Below, in pieces: positions 8,912-32,754 of a stretch of DNA of 42,053 nt. Position numbers and translations under genes: made by a program. Source of the stretch: a virus. Each line of letters starts with the position of its first letter. The first letter of the stretch is position 1. Location of the stretch: IMG/VR virus record IMGVR_UViG_3300021092_000080, positions 1 through 42,053 of that record; one strand, given 5' to 3'. The notes beneath the pieces are model-generated. The model was not told where the DNA came from, made no database searches, and worked only from the letters and a program-made list of their open reading frames with translations.

Positions 8912-10261
8912 TTAAAACACTGGTTGTCCTTTAGCCAGTCTATCGCGAATTTGATAGCCTATCTTCAAAACTTCAGGACTGGTCTTGTTCTCACCTGGAT
9001 TATAGAAATCAGCGGAAACGTGAGCTCCAGTAGTAGAACCACTGCGACCTTGTGTACCGATAAATGTTCCGGGATCAATAACGGCGCCAGGTTTTAGACC
9101 GGGATTAAGTTTATCGAAATGAGCCAGACGCACATCGAATGCTCGTCCCGTCTGCGGGTCGACGCCACGGAGATCGACGTAATTCCCGTAGCCTCTACGG
9201 CCTGGACCTTTTTCTAAATTAGTTTCCCAAGGATCGTTAACTACCTTTAAAACTTGGGCTTTAAATGGGAGGTTGAATGCCGCCCCACGACCGCCGGGAA
9301 TCACAAAGTCAAATCCTGGCTCACCAGAAGTATCAACGGCAGAGGTGATTTGAACCCCCGGAATTGTTGTTCCTCCAGAAGGAGTCAGTGCCCCGGTGGA
9401 CATAGGCTGAGCACCTATGGATTTATTTAGCTGACTTTCTAAAGCTTCAGCTTGTTGGTTGAAAACTTTTTCGGTTAATTTTGCCTGCAGAATTTGTGTT
9501 GCTAAGGCTGTTGGATCAGCGTTCGGCGTTACAGATTCCATCGAAGCCGATAAGGCTTCAGCTCGATACTTTTCAGCTAAGTCAGTAATACCCTGTTCAT
9601 CTAAAGCATTAGCTAGCTCTAAGTATTTAGTTGCTTGATCCCCCGTCGATGCGGGCTGTTCTGTTTTGGTAGCAAACTCACTAACAATATTTTTAAGCGC
9701 TCCTTTGAAATCAAATCGAGGTATAGAAACCGGACTTACAGAAGAAGTTTCGGTTGTACTCTGATCCTGAACTACGGGACTGGGTACGCGCCCGTAAACC
9801 TCCTGAATCGAACTTAAGGATTTGACGGGCTGACCATAATAGCTTTTACCCGATTCAGTCGGGAAAGATGCCCACGCGGGGGATAAAGCGGCGGCAACTC
9901 GTGGACTTAACCCCTCTTGCTTTAAAGCAGCGAGACCGCCAATCTTCATCAGCTTGTCCCGAGCCAAAGCCAAGGCGGCAATATCCTGCTCTTTGGGTCC
10001 GAAAGAGCCCAGTCCTAATCGAGACGCATAAGAACCCCAGGTATAAGGCATGAACTGATATGCACCTGCCGCTGCGCTCTTATATCCCCCGCTAGAAATA
10101 ACAGTATCGGGGTGCTTACTCAGATCGCTAAAAGTGCCGCCACCAAACATAGTTTGGTAACCTTTAGGTCCTGCAGTCCCTTCAGCAAAACGAATCGCCT
10201 GTAATAACCGCTGCCCCTCAGGAGTCTGGCGAAACTGTTCCAGTAATTGCCGCTCATTCAT
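8912..10261 (-). CDS. Lysin: GH104-like muramidase plus degenerate M23-like domain
   Basis: 449 residues. Residues 15-150 match lambda-R-type muramidases (GH104): AIRFAEGTAGPKGY with E27 as the likely catalytic acid, FGGGTFSDLSKHP, GAGxYQF-like AAAGAYQFMPYTW and FGPKEQDIAALAL. Residues 150-310 are a linker with helical segments. Residues 312-420 resemble an M23 (LytM) peptidase fold: GFDFVIPGG, NYVDLRG, RLAHFDKL (H381) and TGAHVSADF. The M23 zinc ligands are only partly kept: HxGxD is E314-P-G-F-D318, and HxH is H414-V-S416. The first domain should cut peptidoglycan glycan strands; the second probably binds rather than cuts. The protein could be an endolysin or a virion-associated wall-degrading enzyme. 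Confidence 0.8.
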   Translation of the reverse strand: MNERQLLEQFRQTPEGQRLLQAIRFAEGTAGPKGYQTMFGGGTFSDLSKHPDTVISSGGYKSAAAGAYQFMPYTWGSYASRLGLGSFGPKEQDIAALALARDKLMKIGGLAALKQEGLSPRVAAALSPAWASFPTESGKSYYGQPVKSLSSIQEVYGRVPSPVVQDQSTTETSSVSPVSIPRFDFKGALKNIVSEFATKTEQPASTGDQATKYLELANALDEQGITDLAEKYRAEALSASMESVTPNADPTALATQILQAKLTEKVFNQQAEALESQLNKSIGAQPMSTGALTPSGGTTIPGVQITSAVDTSGEPGFDFVIPGGRGAAFNLPFKAQVLKVVNDPWETNLEKGPGRRGYGNYVDLRGVDPQTGRAFDVRLAHFDKLNPGLKPGAVIDPGTFIGTQGRSGSTTGAHVSADFYNPGENKTSPEVLKIGYQIRDRLAKGQPVF

Positions 10262-10323: not shown

Positions 10324-10575
10324 TTATTCCTCTGCGTCAAGCTCATCATCAAATAAACTCATGTTGGTATCCATAGCAATACCAACCTCACTCATTACAG
10401 TTTTATAAGCCCGTTCGCGACAAATTAACTTAAATACCGTGGCCCACAGAAACTGATCGCGGTCTTTGTCCTTCAGTGAGTGAGCCGTGGTGCGGATACG
10501 GGTCAGAACAAATTCATCTTCGAGAGTAAGCCCGCAATCAAGGCTTTGAGACTCATTTGACTTACGGGAAGCCAT
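10324..10575 (-). CDS. NblA-like small protein (candidate phycobilisome-degradation adaptor)
   Basis: 83 residues. Residues 16-66 align without gaps to the cyanobacterial NblA/Ycf18 pattern: LTLEDEFVLTRIR corresponds to the LSxEQxFxLxxxR start of NblA, a two-helix spacing follows, then DQFLWATVFKLICRERAYK corresponds to the xFLxxLYxxMxxRExxY part. NblA is a small helical adaptor that delivers phycobilisome proteins to the Clp protease; some cyanophages carry it. Identity is low and the first 15 residues are extra, so this is a candidate. It has its own putative promoter about 55 bases upstream, with TATAAC and TGN. If real, it would act on host light harvesting. Confidence 0.5.
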   Translation of the reverse strand: MASRKSNESQSLDCGLTLEDEFVLTRIRTTAHSLKDKDRDQFLWATVFKLICRERAYKTVMSEVGIAMDTNMSLFDDELDAEE

Positions 10576-10660: not shown

Positions 10661-10909
10661 TCACCAGTTTTTGCAGCTCCAATAGCCTGGAGTTAACTTA
10701 CTCTTTTTCTCGTCACAGCTATGCCTAGATCTAAACGCAGCGCGTCGTTTAGGATCATCGCTACGATTTTCCATATTCGGATCACCAAAGCGAACTAAAC
10801 GAACAGTATCGCCTTCTTTAGCCGCCACGGAGTATTCCTTACCGCTCTGAACGTCACGCTTGGGCTGGTTATACCTTTTGAAAACTTCTCCTGCGATACG
10901 AATTGTCAT
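10661..10909 (-). CDS. Conserved phage-type small basic protein
   Basis: 82 residues starting MTIRIAGEVFKRYNQPKRD. Residues 30-47 (KEGDTVRLVRFGDPNMEN) form a small beta unit. The C-terminus carries RRAAFRSRHSCDEKK followed by LTPGYWSCKNW. This RHxC...YWSCxxW ending with an IAGExxxxxNxPKR start is a pattern I know from small uncharacterised proteins of phages and large DNA viruses. Function unknown. Divergent from the HTH/Dps cassette at 11037. Confidence 0.65.
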   Translation of the reverse strand: MTIRIAGEVFKRYNQPKRDVQSGKEYSVAAKEGDTVRLVRFGDPNMENRSDDPKRRAAFRSRHSCDEKKSKLTPGYWSCKNW

Positions 10910-11036
10910 AGAACTAAACGCTGCAATTTAATATTAGCCGACCGAAAAATAAAGAACACCTTTAATCGGATAAGACTGAGCGTGCACAGAAGAAACAGAG
11001 CTAATATACAACCGTCACATTTTCTCCGCATATACA

Positions 11037-11306
11037 ATGTCGGACGGTAAAGCACTTCTTACCATCGCTGAAACCGCTGAACTTCTTAACTGCAGCTCCG
11101 GCTTTGTGCGTAAGCGCATCGCGCTGTCTGAAGCTAATCAGCCTGGCGGGTGGCCCAAATCTGTGTACGTGAACCTGCAACCTAACGGTGCAAAATCTCT
11201 GTACCGGGTAAACAAAACTGCGCTCGAAGAGTATCTCCAAAGTTCCCCTACCGCTAAAGTGGAGGCAGAAGAAACTCCGATGGCGGCTGTTGCCTGCACT
11301 TTCTGA
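11037..11306 (+). CDS. HTH protein of the Dps cassette (excisionase/AlpA-like)
   Basis: 89 residues. Residues 7-32 form an HTH of the MerR/excisionase type (LTIAETAELLNCSSGFVRKR), followed by the wing YVNLQPNGAKSLYRVNKTAL and a helix ending EEYLQSS. Upstream, TAATAT at 11002-11007 could serve as a -10 box. The gene is immediately followed by dps (1-base gap), so the two are a two-gene transcription unit and this protein may regulate it. Both genes lie on the plus strand inside a minus-strand region. Confidence 0.7.
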   Translation: MSDGKALLTIAETAELLNCSSGFVRKRIALSEANQPGGWPKSVYVNLQPNGAKSLYRVNKTALEEYLQSSPTAKVEAEETPMAAVACTF

Positions 11307-11307
11307 T

Positions 11308-11841
11308 ATGACGTTCTCCGGCTCTTTTGAGGCAGCTCCCACCCCTATGCCGGGTGAGGCAATCGTCATTATCGAAGAGCAGGAATTGAAGCCTGTGGCC
11401 ACGGCTGACGAGCTTATTAGTCAACTTGTGGCCCTCGCCTCTTATACCAATCAGCTGTATTTACAGGCTCACCTCATTCATCTGAATGTGGAGGGGCCTA
11501 TTTTTCTGCCGATCCACGAGTTCCTTAAAGAGCAGTACGATGCGCATATTGCGCAGTTCGATGCGCTGAGCGAGTTTGTTCGCTCAATGGATTATTTAAT
11601 GCCTATGTGCGCAAAAGGTCTTCAAGGCGCCTACAAAAACTTTAAGCACATTAAATCATACGAAGCCCGCGAGATGCTGACGGTGTACGTCAAAAATCTC
11701 GAAGCTGCTGGTTTCATGGCTAAAGATGTCGGTATGACTGCTAAGGAAGTGCAAGCACCCGACATCGAAAATTACCTGGCGGAACTTGTGGGGATGATGT
11801 TCAAAGCTGCCTGGTTCCTCAAAGCGACTCTGCGCGATTAA
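11308..11841 (+). CDS. dps: Dps-family ferritin-like DNA-protection protein with intact ferroxidase signature
   Basis: 177 residues from ATG at 11308, chosen over a TTG 18 bases earlier because it lies 1 base after the upstream stop. Dps proteins form dodecamers that oxidise and store iron and protect DNA from peroxide. The Dps signature is clear: HLNVEGPIFLPIH (H58 and H70, 12 apart), then D85 and E89 at +15 and +19, exactly the spacing of the ferroxidase centre residues of E. coli Dps (H51, H63, D78, E82). The last helix (GMMFKAAWFLKATL) also fits. The N-terminal 40 residues are longer than usual and acidic. Convergent with the 11838 gene, sharing TTAA. Confidence 0.8.
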   Translation: MTFSGSFEAAPTPMPGEAIVIIEEQELKPVATADELISQLVALASYTNQLYLQAHLIHLNVEGPIFLPIHEFLKEQYDAHIAQFDALSEFVRSMDYLMPMCAKGLQGAYKNFKHIKSYEAREMLTVYVKNLEAAGFMAKDVGMTAKEVQAPDIENYLAELVGMMFKAAWFLKATLRD

Positions 11842-12494
11842 ATTGCAGTCCAGGTATTAGAGAACTGAATATATAGACCCGCCGCGTAAACACCGGAGGT
11901 TTGTATTTGGTAAAACAAAGCTCCAGAACCATAACTGCTCGGACTAGGTAATCCGCTTAGTCCTATATCGGCACTTTTAACTGTGCCCGAGGCCAAGATC
12001 GCCCCTGACGCCAAAGTGGCTGTATTAGCTGTGATTGCTCCCGAGGCCAAGATCGCCCCTGACGCCAAAGTGGCTGTATTAGCTGTGATTGCTCCCGAAG
12101 CCAAGACAGCGCCGGAAGCTAATACTGCTACGTTTGCAATACCAGCAACGGAAGCTGAGTCTGCCGTGGTTGACGAATCAGAAAAAGACGCTCCGATCTT
12201 TTGCCACGCTGAGCCTGTCCAAACTTTTAAATAGTAAGCAGACGTAGAGCTGTCGGACCACAGTTCACCAACTGAGTTACCCGCTACTCCAACGGGAGTT
12301 GAGTTAGGCGCCGTGGCCCCATAATGCGAGGGACCGATCTTCCTGATAGCACCAGCTGAGTCTTCGAAATAAAGCCCTGGATCGGCGGCACCCACTGCCA
12401 TAGCCAGTTCACCGTTCTGAATAACAGTTCCGCTAGGGCGATCAGACGATTGACCGGAACGCTTTAAAAGAAGAACAACAGGTGTTGAAGTCAT
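11838..12494 (-). CDS. Tail-fibre-like structural protein with 18-residue repeats
   Basis: 218 residues. The N-terminus reads MTSTPVVLLLKRSGQSSDRP, then SGTVIQNGELAMAVGAADPG and LYFEDSAGAIRKIGP, a common N-terminal segment of phage fibres. A central block has tandem repeats of LASGAITANTATLASGAI, 18 residues each. The unit VGELWSDSST...YLKVWTGSAWQKIG matches the W-rich repeats of the 3086 gene product. Fibre or capsid-fibre role inferred. Confidence 0.75.
   Translation of the reverse strand: MTSTPVVLLLKRSGQSSDRPSGTVIQNGELAMAVGAADPGLYFEDSAGAIRKIGPSHYGATAPNSTPVGVAGNSVGELWSDSSTSAYYLKVWTGSAWQKIGASFSDSSTTADSASVAGIANVAVLASGAVLASGAITANTATLASGAILASGAITANTATLASGAILASGTVKSADIGLSGLPSPSSYGSGALFYQIQTSGVYAAGLYIQFSNTWTAI
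11986..12100. repeat. Tandem 54-base direct repeats inside the fibre-like gene
   Basis: Two identical 54-base units (starting at 11986 and 12040, both CCCGAGGCCAAGATCGCC) are followed by the diverged start of a third at 12094. The period of 54 bases is 18 codons, so the repeats keep the reading frame of the minus-strand gene. The perfect identity suggests a recent duplication, and copy number may vary between isolates. Confidence 0.85.
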
Positions 12495-16525: not shown

Positions 16526-17152
16526 TTATCGCCAATTTGCGTAGAAGTATAAGCGGTCTGCACGTGAAGTATCTGGTGGTCCAGGAATAGCCTGAATAAA
16601 CTCACCGCCACTGCGCTCAAACCGATACCGCGCTGCCACGGGGTCCCGATAGTTAGGCACATACAGCATGTGAGCTAAACGGTCACACTCATAAAGGTAA
16701 TTTTCCCGCCAGATCCGGGCGGTCTCACGCTTGTCCTGAATATTAATCGAACGACTAACGTCGCCCAGAATCGTTTCTTGACGACTGGTTGCCCGCCCCG
16801 TGGCCAATTCCGTCAGGCGCTCTGCTTCTTCGCAGCGCTCAATCTGCTGAACTATTTTGTCGTAATAATATTCACTTGGAATGCTATTACAAGCCTCCAT
16901 TAATCTGGCGTAATCGCCAGCCGGCACAGTCGCAATATTGTATCCAAGGTGATACGCAACACGACTAAAGTTAAAGTCGTCAAGCCTATAACCAAATACC
17001 TGCGCAGGGTTGCGAGTAAGTTGATTAATTGCGGCGTATATAACTTCACGCTTTGTGGCGTCAGTTGTGTCGGGCTGAAAGACAACACCTTGACCCGCAA
17101 GGTAACTTTGTATCTGTTGAAGTTCTTGCGTGCTTAACTGAGCCACTACCAA
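16526..17152 (-). CDS. Hypothetical virion/neck-type protein
   Basis: 208 residues, helical, starting MVVAQLSTQELQQIQSYLAG. It contains RLMEACNSIPSEYYYDKIVQ and a long charged helix (ERCEEAERLTELATGRA), and ends RADRLYFYANWR. The size, the position between head and tail-type genes, and the helical content would fit a head-completion or neck protein, but I cannot name the family. Confidence 0.6.
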   Translation of the reverse strand: MVVAQLSTQELQQIQSYLAGQGVVFQPDTTDATKREVIYAAINQLTRNPAQVFGYRLDDFNFSRVAYHLGYNIATVPAGDYARLMEACNSIPSEYYYDKIVQQIERCEEAERLTELATGRATSRQETILGDVSRSINIQDKRETARIWRENYLYECDRLAHMLYVPNYRDPVAARYRFERSGGEFIQAIPGPPDTSRADRLYFYANWR

Positions 17153-19809: not shown

Positions 19810-20937
19810 TTAAATCGCTTTTTGGTTGCTGGAATTTACCGTGGGACTAAAAACCCTCACCATGTTGCGCACAGACTCAGCACCCTGCATATAAACAGAG
19901 CCATAGTTGTAGGCATAACGCGTGGACTTACCGCGATATACGTACCGCAAAGCAGAAGACATTAAGCCAGGTGTTCCCGACCGGATAGTTTCTGTGTAAG
20001 TCTTGCAATAAACAGGAGAGTTATAAACCCACTCAGAACGATCAGAAGTGCCTTGAGAACCTAAGGCGTTTGTTAAGAGTGTGCCCTCATAACTCCGATG
20101 AGTAACACCGCCTCCTGTTTGCCCCTGCGCTGCGCTGTTGGCTTCTGGAGTGTTATAAGGATTGTAATTTTGATCAGCCGGCGCAACCCCGCCATAATAC
20201 GTGTAAATACCTTCGTTACGAAGGCCGTATTCTGGTCCGGTCGACGTAACAACTTTTACATTTGCAATCGTCGTTACGCTTAGAGGGCGATAACCGTTAT
20301 AAGAACTAAGAGAACCGCTTGGCAAATAGTCTGTGTTCTGATAATCAACCCAATAACCAGAAACAGCTTGAGGAACAGTCCTAAAAGCAGTGCTCTTATA
20401 CCACTGAGTGCTATTTACTGTTGCGACTACAGCAGAGCTGCCCATATTAGAGTGGTGATCACAGTAGTAATACAGAAAAGAAGGTGCCGAATCGGCAACA
20501 ACAATTTGAATGTAACTATTCGGCGTCCCTGGTGTTCCGCTAGTTGTTACGCCGACTGTATATTGAACCCCACCACTGTGCGTGCCATTGCTGGTCGTGG
20601 AAAATCGAAAAGGATGTCCCGCGTTTGACGGATCAGATAGATTAAAAATAAAAGTCTGACCTCGCCTTAGCTGAAGCACAGCTTGAGGTTGATTATTTAC
20701 ATAAAAAATATTTCCCGTGCCAGGATTAGCAACTGTTACATTTAAATAAGTCGTTATTTGTGCGTTATAGATATCCGCGTAACTCTGATCAGGAGGTCCG
20801 GGAACAGTTACACCGAGGTCAGCCCCAGTATCGCGGATACCCGAGCTAAGGACGATGTAGCCCTCGTGGTTAGGACCGGATTGAATCCGATGAAAACCCG
20901 TGTCGTATTTGTAATTAGATAGCGGTGTATAAACCAC
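19810..20937 (-). CDS. Virion protein with cupredoxin-like domain
   Basis: 375 residues. Residues 65-172 match the cupredoxin-type domain known from cyanophage structural proteins: VNNQPQAVLQLRRGQTF, NLSDPSNAGHPFRFS, GVTTSGTPGTPNSYIQI and FLYYYCDHHSNMGS. Candidate type-1 copper ligands are H108, C159, H162 and M165. The rest is Tyr/Asn/Ser-rich (YTYYGG, then NYNPYNTPEANS), typical of virion proteins, and ends VNSSNQKAI. Its place directly before the capsid gene supports a structural role; whether copper is bound is unknown. Confidence 0.75.
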   Translation of the reverse strand: MVYTPLSNYKYDTGFHRIQSGPNHEGYIVLSSGIRDTGADLGVTVPGPPDQSYADIYNAQITTYLNVTVANPGTGNIFYVNNQPQAVLQLRRGQTFIFNLSDPSNAGHPFRFSTTSNGTHSGGVQYTVGVTTSGTPGTPNSYIQIVVADSAPSFLYYYCDHHSNMGSSAVVATVNSTQWYKSTAFRTVPQAVSGYWVDYQNTDYLPSGSLSSYNGYRPLSVTTIANVKVVTSTGPEYGLRNEGIYTYYGGVAPADQNYNPYNTPEANSAAQGQTGGGVTHRSYEGTLLTNALGSQGTSDRSEWVYNSPVYCKTYTETIRSGTPGLMSSALRYVYRGKSTRYAYNYGSVYMQGAESVRNMVRVFSPTVNSSNQKAI

Positions 20938-30389: not shown

Positions 30390-31469
30390 ATGCAGTCAAC
30401 CACACGCTTTTTTCACGCTCACAGCAGCGTCCTTTATCCGATCAAACGTCAAACAACGGGTATACCCGATGTATATACACAAGCAAACAACTTAAACGGC
30501 GTATTCACACGCATCAATTACGGGTTGCCTGAGGGCTCGGTCGCTAACTTCAGCTCCTCGATCCTCAAGCACAAAAACAAAACCTACCTCGCGTGGCGCT
30601 CTCAGCCCGAGCCTTTCGGTTTCCGGTGGGACAACAACTACTTTTATCTAAACGATAAGCCAACCGATATTTACCTTGGCCTCCTTCACGACGATCAAAC
30701 TGTCGTAGGTGCTAAAAACCTGCGCCCCAACAAGCACCGCCTTAGCTACGAAGACCCGCGACTCTTTGTCGGACCTGATGATGAACTCTATGTTCAATTT
30801 GTTGCTTCAACTTACGCAAGTCGTCATAACAAGCATGGGCGCAACTTTTTTGATAATCCTAAAGTCGTTGTTTGTTACGTTGATGAACTAGGAGAAGCAG
30901 TTCAAGCTGCTATTCCGCCTATCGGCGAAAACCGCAGCAAAGAAAAAACGGAAAAAAATTGGTGCTTCTTTAGTCATAAAGAAGAACTTAAGTGTTTGTA
31001 CTCGACACGCCCTCTTGTGATCGAGTGCGAAAAGAGTTCTCGTGTTGAGATTGATTCATCAGCGTTGGACGCTGTTACGAATGGGTCGCCCACTTTTAAC
31101 TCCACGGCACCGATAAACCTAGGTTACGCTCACTTAGTTTTCTACCACTGGAAGCACATGGCTAGAAAACAAAACGGAGCACCGTACCTTCAGTATCATC
31201 TGAGCGCATACTTAGTCGATAAAGAGTTTAAAACTATTACACATGTTATTAAAAAGCCTCTGTTCTCGGGATCTTTAAACGACGAGCTCATCTACTGGAC
31301 GGATTACGGCGGCGCCCCTCTGTCCAATCAACCGGCAGTTATCCTTCCGTTCGGGGCATACATCGAAAACGCGAACCTCGTGATGTCTCTAGGCGTAAAC
31401 GACGCGTTTATGGGCATTATGCGCTGCCCACTTGAGTCCGTTATGAAACAACTTGAGCGCGTAAGTTAA
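30390..31469 (+). CDS. GH130-like (beta-propeller) protein
   Basis: 359 residues. SYEDPRLFVGPDDELYVQF (EDPR at 121-124) and EKNWCFF (EKNW at 188-191) are motifs of the GH130 mannoside phosphorylase/hydrolase family, with YSTRPLVIECE and HLVFYHWKHM in the expected order. The fold would be a five-bladed propeller. It may process or bind beta-mannosides or related glycans together with the adjacent GT4-like protein. Convergent with the 31466 gene (four-base overlap). Catalytic function is not proven by what I see. Confidence 0.6.
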   Translation: MQSTTRFFHAHSSVLYPIKRQTTGIPDVYTQANNLNGVFTRINYGLPEGSVANFSSSILKHKNKTYLAWRSQPEPFGFRWDNNYFYLNDKPTDIYLGLLHDDQTVVGAKNLRPNKHRLSYEDPRLFVGPDDELYVQFVASTYASRHNKHGRNFFDNPKVVVCYVDELGEAVQAAIPPIGENRSKEKTEKNWCFFSHKEELKCLYSTRPLVIECEKSSRVEIDSSALDAVTNGSPTFNSTAPINLGYAHLVFYHWKHMARKQNGAPYLQYHLSAYLVDKEFKTITHVIKKPLFSGSLNDELIYWTDYGGAPLSNQPAVILPFGAYIENANLVMSLGVNDAFMGIMRCPLESVMKQLERVS

Positions 31470-31996
31470 CTCTTTTCCTCGCGCTCAATTGTCGACCACA
31501 CGAGGAAAGAAGAATCGTCTAAGAGAGTTTGAATTGCAGGTTGTCCATCAAACGTCTGCATTAACTCTCTAAGGCACCGATCAGCTCCGGCAAGAAGTAA
31601 GCCGCGTCGATCTAGGCCATCGGAAATGGACCGAACAGCCTGGATGTGAGAACGCAATTCTTTCTGAAGAGCAGAAAGCTTAGTAGCTGCTGTGGCATGA
31701 TCTAACATGCCGGTTATAGTCATGTTGCGTACGTTATCAATATCCTGCTTGATACCATCAATCTCTATGAGCAAGATCTTGCGAAGATCCTCTTTAGGAT
31801 ATTTCTCCTGGACCCAGGCAGTCAGATCAGAAATACTGCCTGTGTAACTCGGCTGGAGAAACCGAGCATAAAGATACGCTTCGATATCGCTGGTTGCGTT
31901 CTTGGCGTAAAAAACAAAAGCGTCCTTTTGAGATTTATCGAGCGAAGCTAACCAGGAAGCGACAGTGGTCGAATCACCTATTTGAGATTTAATCAC
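31466..31996 (-). CDS. Hypothetical helical protein
   Basis: 176 residues, helical and acidic, starting MIKSQIGDSTTVASWLASLD. Coiled-coil-like stretches occur at residues 80-125 (IDGIKQDIDNVRNMTITGML and LSALQKELRSHIQAVRSISD). The size and place near terL would fit a small terminase subunit, but no HTH or other family sign is visible and it is 2.3 kb from terL behind opposite-strand genes. Function unknown. Confidence 0.6.
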   Translation of the reverse strand: MIKSQIGDSTTVASWLASLDKSQKDAFVFYAKNATSDIEAYLYARFLQPSYTGSISDLTAWVQEKYPKEDLRKILLIEIDGIKQDIDNVRNMTITGMLDHATAATKLSALQKELRSHIQAVRSISDGLDRRGLLLAGADRCLRELMQTFDGQPAIQTLLDDSSFLVWSTIEREEKS

Positions 31997-32754
31997 GCAA
32001 AAGCTCGTTGACCTGCAAGAGCCATTCCAGCACCAAAACGCTTAAGTGCCAACTGGCCTTCAATATTTCCACGCTGAAGAGCAAGTTGATTGCGAGTCTG
32101 CTCTTGCTGGCGGCGGATATCTAAATTCGTTGATGCGATATCGCCGGCAAGTTTGTTCGAAGTGCGTTGCGCTTCGGTAGCCATTGTGGCCAAAGCAGTC
32201 GCAGCTGGAGTCAGCAGCGTGGTTTGACCCTTGAGACCCTCGGTAGCTAACTCTTGAACACCCTGAGCGTATTGACGAGTTAATGCGGAAGCTGTCTCGG
32301 GACCGAGCATCTCAGTAGCCAACCGAGCTTTACCAGCTAAATCACCCAAACCAATTGCGCTGCTAGCGTACTGCGAAGCGATCCCGGCTTGCAAACCAGA
32401 TAAAGTTTGCTCTTTTTGTTTAGCAATATCAAACTGATCGTACGCAGCCTGACCCAGCACTTTGGATTTGATCGCTTCAGTTCCTGTATAAGGAGCCATC
32501 AAAGAAGCAAGCTCGACGGCGGCAGTCGTAAGGGGAGTTACACCTGCGGTAAGGCCACCATAAAGACTCGCGTAGTCAACGCCCGGTCCTTGATCTCTGC
32601 CTCCTCCAAAAGCACCCAGTATAGAACCTAGGCCAGAAAGGGCCATACCCCCGCCAGCCAATAAACCGGCAGCGCCTAAACCTCCGGCAGCAGCGGCAGA
32701 GCCACCACCCGCTAATAAAGGAGCAGCAAAAGCAGCGGCAATAGGTACAGGCAT
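31993..32754 (-). CDS. Internal-virion-like protein
   Basis: 253 residues. The N-terminal 60 residues are a Gly/Ala-rich hydrophobic segment (AAAFAAPLLAGGGSAAAAGG, then GLLAGGGMALSGLGSILGAF), a likely membrane-inserting part. The rest is helical and Gln/Ala-rich (QQEQTRNQLALQRGNIEGQL). This combination is typical of DNA-ejection proteins of short-tailed phages (gp14-like position). It overlaps the 31466 gene by four bases and is followed upstream by two more such proteins. Confidence 0.7.
   Translation of the reverse strand: MPVPIAAAFAAPLLAGGGSAAAAGGLGAAGLLAGGGMALSGLGSILGAFGGGRDQGPGVDYASLYGGLTAGVTPLTTAAVELASLMAPYTGTEAIKSKVLGQAAYDQFDIAKQKEQTLSGLQAGIASQYASSAIGLGDLAGKARLATEMLGPETASALTRQYAQGVQELATEGLKGQTTLLTPAATALATMATEAQRTSNKLAGDIASTNLDIRRQQEQTRNQLALQRGNIEGQLALKRFGAGMALAGQRAFA

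Follow-up and report, generated by a model that had tools for sequence, protein, structure and literature searches.

A resident gene pair of cyanophages related to S-EIV1 encodes a small HTH protein and a divergent Dps-like miniferritin with an altered candidate ferroxidase site

The window analysed here is a virus record of 42,053 bases, taken at full length (IMG/VR record IMGVR_UViG_3300021092_000080). The region around its dps gene contains the following features.

10324..10575, minus strand: NblA-like small protein (weak match), a conserved neighbour
10661..10909, minus strand: conserved small protein of phrog_7595, a PHROGs family without assigned function; divergent neighbour across the control region
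10971..11018, plus strand: conserved non-coding block, putative extended -10 promoter and/or operator, about 20-45 bases 5' of the HTH start
11037..11306, plus strand: HTH_17/MerR-like small DNA-binding protein of 89 aa, conserved operon partner of dps, in which Cys19 is invariant and another Cys lies close to the C-terminus
11308..11841, plus strand: divergent Dps-like miniferritin gene, 177 aa, retaining H58, H70, D85, E89 and W169, with K74 at the canonical site-B acid position
11308..11409, plus strand: N-terminal extension of the miniferritin, about 34 residues with net charge -5, mostly predicted disordered
11838..12494, minus strand: minor-tail/fibre-like protein; its gene converges on dps and overlaps the stop of dps tail to tail by 4 bases

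The HTH frame stops one base before the ATG of dps. Both genes lie on the plus strand and both flanking genes, 10661-10909 upstream and 11838-12494 downstream, on the minus strand. The open reading frames agree on these points with the initial annotation. An in-frame TTG at 11290 is an alternative start of dps; however, the relatives conserve the ATG at 11308 instead. The HTH gene is found directly 5' of dps in 56 relatives, with gaps of 1-13 bases and a single overlap. In one relative (L007, 5730-6089) the HTH frame continues for about 30 residues beyond the usual stop and enters dps, which may be a frameshift or an assembly error.

Several other observations were made in the neighbourhood. 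The phrog_7595 protein, divergent from the HTH gene across a shared control region, is highly conserved and ends with SKLTPGYWSCKxW. The tail-fibre-like gene 11838-12494 contains an imperfect 54-base direct repeat (SGAILASGAITANTATLA) at 11986-12106. The product of 19810-20937 (minus strand), also tail-fibre-like according to PHROGs, has a stretch that is cupredoxin-like by eye (GHPFRFSTT...YYCDHHSNMG) and no Pfam match.

The product of 11308-11841 matches the Pfam Ferritin profile PF00210 (39.8 bits at a cut-off of 24.5, E 5.3e-10) and phrog_3636 in the PHROGs profile search (E 3.7e-24). The cut-offs of the NCBIfam Dps equivalogs are missed by far (23.6 vs 114, 22.7 vs 300 and 20.5 vs 170 bits), and thus the protein is a divergent member. 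The AlphaFold2 monomer model, for which the input was 47 phage sequences, has a mean pLDDT of 84.5. Its helices A, B, BC, C and D cover residues 33-60, 66-93, 102-108, 120-147 and 151-175, and residues 1-26 are mostly disordered. The model, Foldseek and VIA-align agree on a four-helix bundle with a short helix in the BC loop. Every top row of the Foldseek search against the PDB is a Dps, the first being PA0962 of Pseudomonas aeruginosa (8ff9), and the VIA-align superposition on MrgA of Bacillus subtilis (2chp) has Z 21.8 and 1.5 A over 145 residues. Since the Ferritin profile is matched and a Dps fold is predicted, the product neither falls outside the ferritin superfamily nor lacks the four-helix bundle, and the assignment made in the initial annotation holds. 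By its modelled structure it is a Dps-fold protein, and it would be expected to form a dodecamer. The fold, the BC helix and, at exactly the same spacing, four of the five ferroxidase ligands are shared with MrgA, PA0962 and Escherichia coli Dps. However, the identity to canonical bacterial Dps over the structural match is only 16-25%. Unlike them, the window protein has Lys for the site-B acid, a long acidic disordered N-terminus and scores that do not reach the equivalog cut-offs.

The residues H58, H70, D85 and E89 of the window protein have spacing +12, +15, +19, and all four are invariant in 63 of 63 distinct phage relatives. The chance that four positions named beforehand would all be invariant is about 1e-3, given some 30 invariant columns in 177. 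In canonical Dps the fifth ligand is Asp or Glu at E. coli position 67, which coordinates the site-B iron (PMC6675082). This position corresponds to residue 74 of the phage protein, because the distances from H to H and from H to D/E are the same, without gaps. It is occupied by Lys in 57 of the 63 phage proteins and by Q, G, N or R in the others, and is never acidic among the counted residues, whereas in 39 sampled homologues from cyanobacteria Glu or Asp occurs 32 times and Lys never. Further invariant residues specific to the phage proteins are E62, D95, C101 and N130. The initial annotation was therefore right about the four residues and their spacing, and incomplete in calling the ferroxidase site intact, because the site-B acid is Lys: as far as the alignments tell, the candidate iron site is conserved but altered.

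With K74 at the equivalent of position 67, the window protein does not have the five-ligand centre of the E. coli/Listeria type. The cyanobacterial His-type proteins NpDps4 and TeDpsA (PMC6675082) are likewise non-canonical at position 67, and share with it the Dps fold and the cyanobacterial setting. However, they have His at the position of D78 and use His164 as a ligand from a third subunit, whereas the phage proteins keep Asp at the former position (D85, 63 of 63). Replacement by K74 removes the canonical site-B ligand (PMC6675082), and thus the oxidase activity may be weak or absent. On the other hand, NpDps4, which has Asn at position 67, still oxidises Fe2+ (PMC6675082), and thus loss of the acid at this position alone need not abolish activity.

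Among 50,697 records of GenBank phages, a relative of the window Dps was found at E 1e-3 only in S-EIV1, whereas 167 IMG/VR stretches encode a member of the family. The earlier statement that Dps is rare in tailed phages is thus true of isolates at this level of similarity and does not extend to environmental phages; other phage Dps have also been published (PMC8008677, PMC6669764). The S-EIV1 protein, annotated as DNA-binding ferritin-like protein (AHV82153.1 in KJ410740), is 47% identical to the window protein, with 97% of the protein covered, and has the same H/H/D/E residues; the two phages are related. However, the context of dps in S-EIV1 is different: there is no HTH partner, and an annotated sulfate adenylyltransferase comes next. 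The Dps proteins of gut 'Gratiaviridae' (PMC8008677) and Lactobacillus phages (PMC6669764) are also phage-encoded, with a proposed role in handling iron and reactive oxygen during infection, but they belong to a different lineage and have no sequence match to the window protein at E 1e-3. Those of Lactobacillus phages Semele and LP65 match it by fold only.

Related contigs were selected by an unrelated gene of the structural region (16526-17152); they represent the own lineage only and include some near-duplicates. In all 40 of these contigs that reach far enough, the HTH and dps genes occupy the same place on the same strand, and the genes around them diverge to 29-60% identity. Thus the pair has been resident without recent insertion, and it is a resident part of the genome in this lineage of cyanobacterial viruses. 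The suggestion of a recently acquired cassette has to be rejected, since the related contigs retain the pair at a fixed syntenic position.

In the tree all 63 phage proteins form a single clade that excludes 39 cyanobacterial proteins (support 0.865, root uncertain), and the best of 386 cyanobacterial genomes scores just 53 bits against the phage Dps; hence direct descent from a sampled cyanobacterial Dps is unsupported. No close relatives were found in bacterial genomes by a direct scan, a pattern method of limited reach. Twenty phage Dps fall outside the set with HTH genes: one lies on a contig that ends short of its HTH, and the other 19 are true members of the S-EIV1 branch, forming a clade with support 0.994. 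The HTH gene is absent from this branch, where dps is often followed by variable genes; a Pfam search of the genes adjacent to dps in the branch gave no useful family.

The HTH protein scores slightly below the curated cut-offs of HTH_17 (26.4 bits, cut-off 27) and TIGR01764 (27 bits, cut-off 28.8), and the matches span just the first 20 or so residues of the profiles. The 36 distinct HTH proteins have 31 invariant residues in common, Cys19 among them. In each of the 36, a variable acidic linker is followed by a Cys close to the C-terminus. The AlphaFold2 model is of low confidence (pLDDT 58) and has a winged-HTH topology. No homologues were found in GenBank phages. The protein had been described as excisionase-type. 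This is not supported: a tyrosine integrase is present in one of 20 related contigs checked, while the HTH gene is kept in all the marker-selected contigs, and it appears to be a conserved operon partner of dps rather than an excisionase. The contig with the integrase gene is IMGVR_UViG_3300020190_000042, a sibling 99.98% identical to the window over 5308-27152; the gene lies at 9246-10097 (plus strand) among the tail genes, in a part where the sibling departs from the window (left of about 2855 in the latter).

The block at 10971..11018 reads AGCTAATATA...CGTCAC in the window, and the family consensus is TGCTAAtcT...CGTTG. The motif [AT]GCTA[AT] occurs at -65..-30 of the HTH start in 14 of 22 divergent representatives, compared with 0.74 for shuffled sequences and zero for the three other positional windows. 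A scan for consensus sigma-70 promoters and terminators found nothing, and thus the block is just a putative promoter. Tentatively, its conservation suggests a dedicated promoter or operator.

The capsid, portal-like and terminase-like genes of the window match S-EIV1 at 68, 46 and 53%, the latter two roles being assigned by position, size and the annotated terminase of S-EIV1, which infects Synechococcus. In the S-EIV1 record (KJ410740), the plus-strand frame 30860-32011 is an intact 383-aa homologue of the window major head protein, 68% identical, where GenBank instead has a minus-strand hypothetical gene (AHV82227) and a short plus-strand frame; the capsid gene is apparently mis-called.

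Matches to the NblA family were found in 13 of 20 related contigs, seven of them over the cut-off. The conserved minus-strand gene 10324-10575, 0.9 kb and two genes from dps, has a weak match to Pfam NblA (16.4 bits, cut-off 25). NblA is the commonest match in its family (20 of 31 members, best E 5e-4), and the sole PDB match is 1ojh with E 0.25. Several relatives have both a homologue of this gene and a better NblA elsewhere. No psbA or psbD was found in the 20 related contigs. The kinship with S-EIV1 and the NblA matches support a phycobilisome-bearing host, in accordance with the light-harvesting host initially proposed. Phage NblA has been proposed to prevent photoinhibition through removal of phycobilisomes (PMC4103541). 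A miniferritin next to an NblA-like gene would fit the same problem, that of oxidants and freed iron.

Taken together, these data make it slightly more probable than not that S-EIV1-related cyanophages have in this pair a resident operon of the infection stage, whose Dps would control Fe2+ and peroxide without coating DNA. The observations behind this reading are the fold, the residue conservation, the Lys substitution, the synteny, the upstream block and the tail charge. The oligomerisation, iron chemistry, timing, regulation and benefit would be as follows. The second gene of the operon would yield a Dps-type miniferritin, probably dodecameric. The cage would take up Fe2+ freed as photosynthesis and Fe-S metabolism are switched off by the phage, with a further source in phycobilisomes dismantled by NblA-type proteins. 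It would oxidise Fe2+ slowly with H2O2 or O2 at the inter-subunit site, where H58, H70, D85 and E89 are kept and Lys replaces the site-B carboxylate. In this way the cage would protect both the cell and the phage genome under replication from Fenton damage, to a limited extent and with the DNA left uncoated. The HTH protein, which would share its transcript with dps, would regulate the shared intergenic control region, and may be redox-responsive via its conserved cysteines.

Other roles of the cage can be considered. Basic tails are the usual DNA-binding element of Dps, and the window protein does not have the basic N-terminal tail of DNA-binding Dps of the E. coli type. The tail carries a net charge of -3 to -8 in 43 of 43 Dps proteins of the HTH branch, and the core is also about -3.5 net. 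Hence, although the family name and the annotation of phrog_3636 as 'DNA binding protein' suggest that the cage compacts the DNA of phage or host or shields it, such coating is quite improbable, and from sequence it appears the less likely mode in the branch of the window. Tails of the true S-EIV1 branch are different, Lys/Pro-rich and weakly basic (net +1 to +3), which would agree better with coating. The initial annotation had considered protection of phage DNA; it is protection by binding that is disfavoured here, and there are Dps that protect DNA although they do not bind it (title of PDB entry 1o9r). A Dps-fold cage that has lost ferroxidase chemistry, with a structural, metal-buffering (e.g. 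Zn) or regulatory role, would be consistent with the consistently non-acidic residue 74 and the phage-specific invariant residues. We consider it about as improbable as coating: H58, H70, D85 and E89 stay invariant across 47-94% identity, which speaks for selection on metal binding, and the activity of NpDps4 points the same way.

One more possibility is a cage that travels inside or on the virion and either has a protective role or brings in iron together with the genome. The dps gene of the window indeed sits among late structural genes (tail/lysis), and predicted structures in BFVD from other uncultured phages (A0A6J7WPK9, A0A6J7XDU5, A0A6J7WIS1) show a Dps domain within proteins called prohead protease, which sets a precedent for association with capsids. 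In the S-EIV1 branch the next genes, at 0 to -3 bases from dps, encode variable proteins without assigned function. However, in the lineage of the window dps lies on the strand opposite to the structural genes, has its own conserved upstream block and is not fused to a capsid protein, which makes a virion-associated Dps unlikely. The separate strand and control region speak equally against an iron depot for virion assembly or later infections ('Ferrojan horse'-like), in which the cage would supply iron to tail proteins; despite the adjacent tail-like genes and the discussion of iron-binding tails of marine phages in the literature, this is very unlikely.

Thus the infection-stage operon remains the preferred reading. 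A more specific version of it, bold and rather doubtful, is that the lineage has a phage-specific 'Lys-type' miniferritin (H-H-K-D-E), timed by a co-transcribed Cys-bearing HTH protein that would sense the redox state or iron of the collapsing photosynthetic host, and that may also control the divergent NblA-like gene.

Phage-encoded Dps has been published before (PMC8008677, PMC6669764); what is added here is the fixed operon, the Lys substitution, the split in tail charge and the NblA-like neighbour. How phages affect the iron and reactive oxygen of their hosts is often debated, but rarely linked to a defined gene set. Here there is a conserved pair with a named active-site change and a conserved partner regulator. 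Related chemistry can be tested in S-EIV1, a cultured relative that grows on Synechococcus. If Lys at site B still supports oxidation, this would bear on how miniferritins choose between O2 and H2O2.
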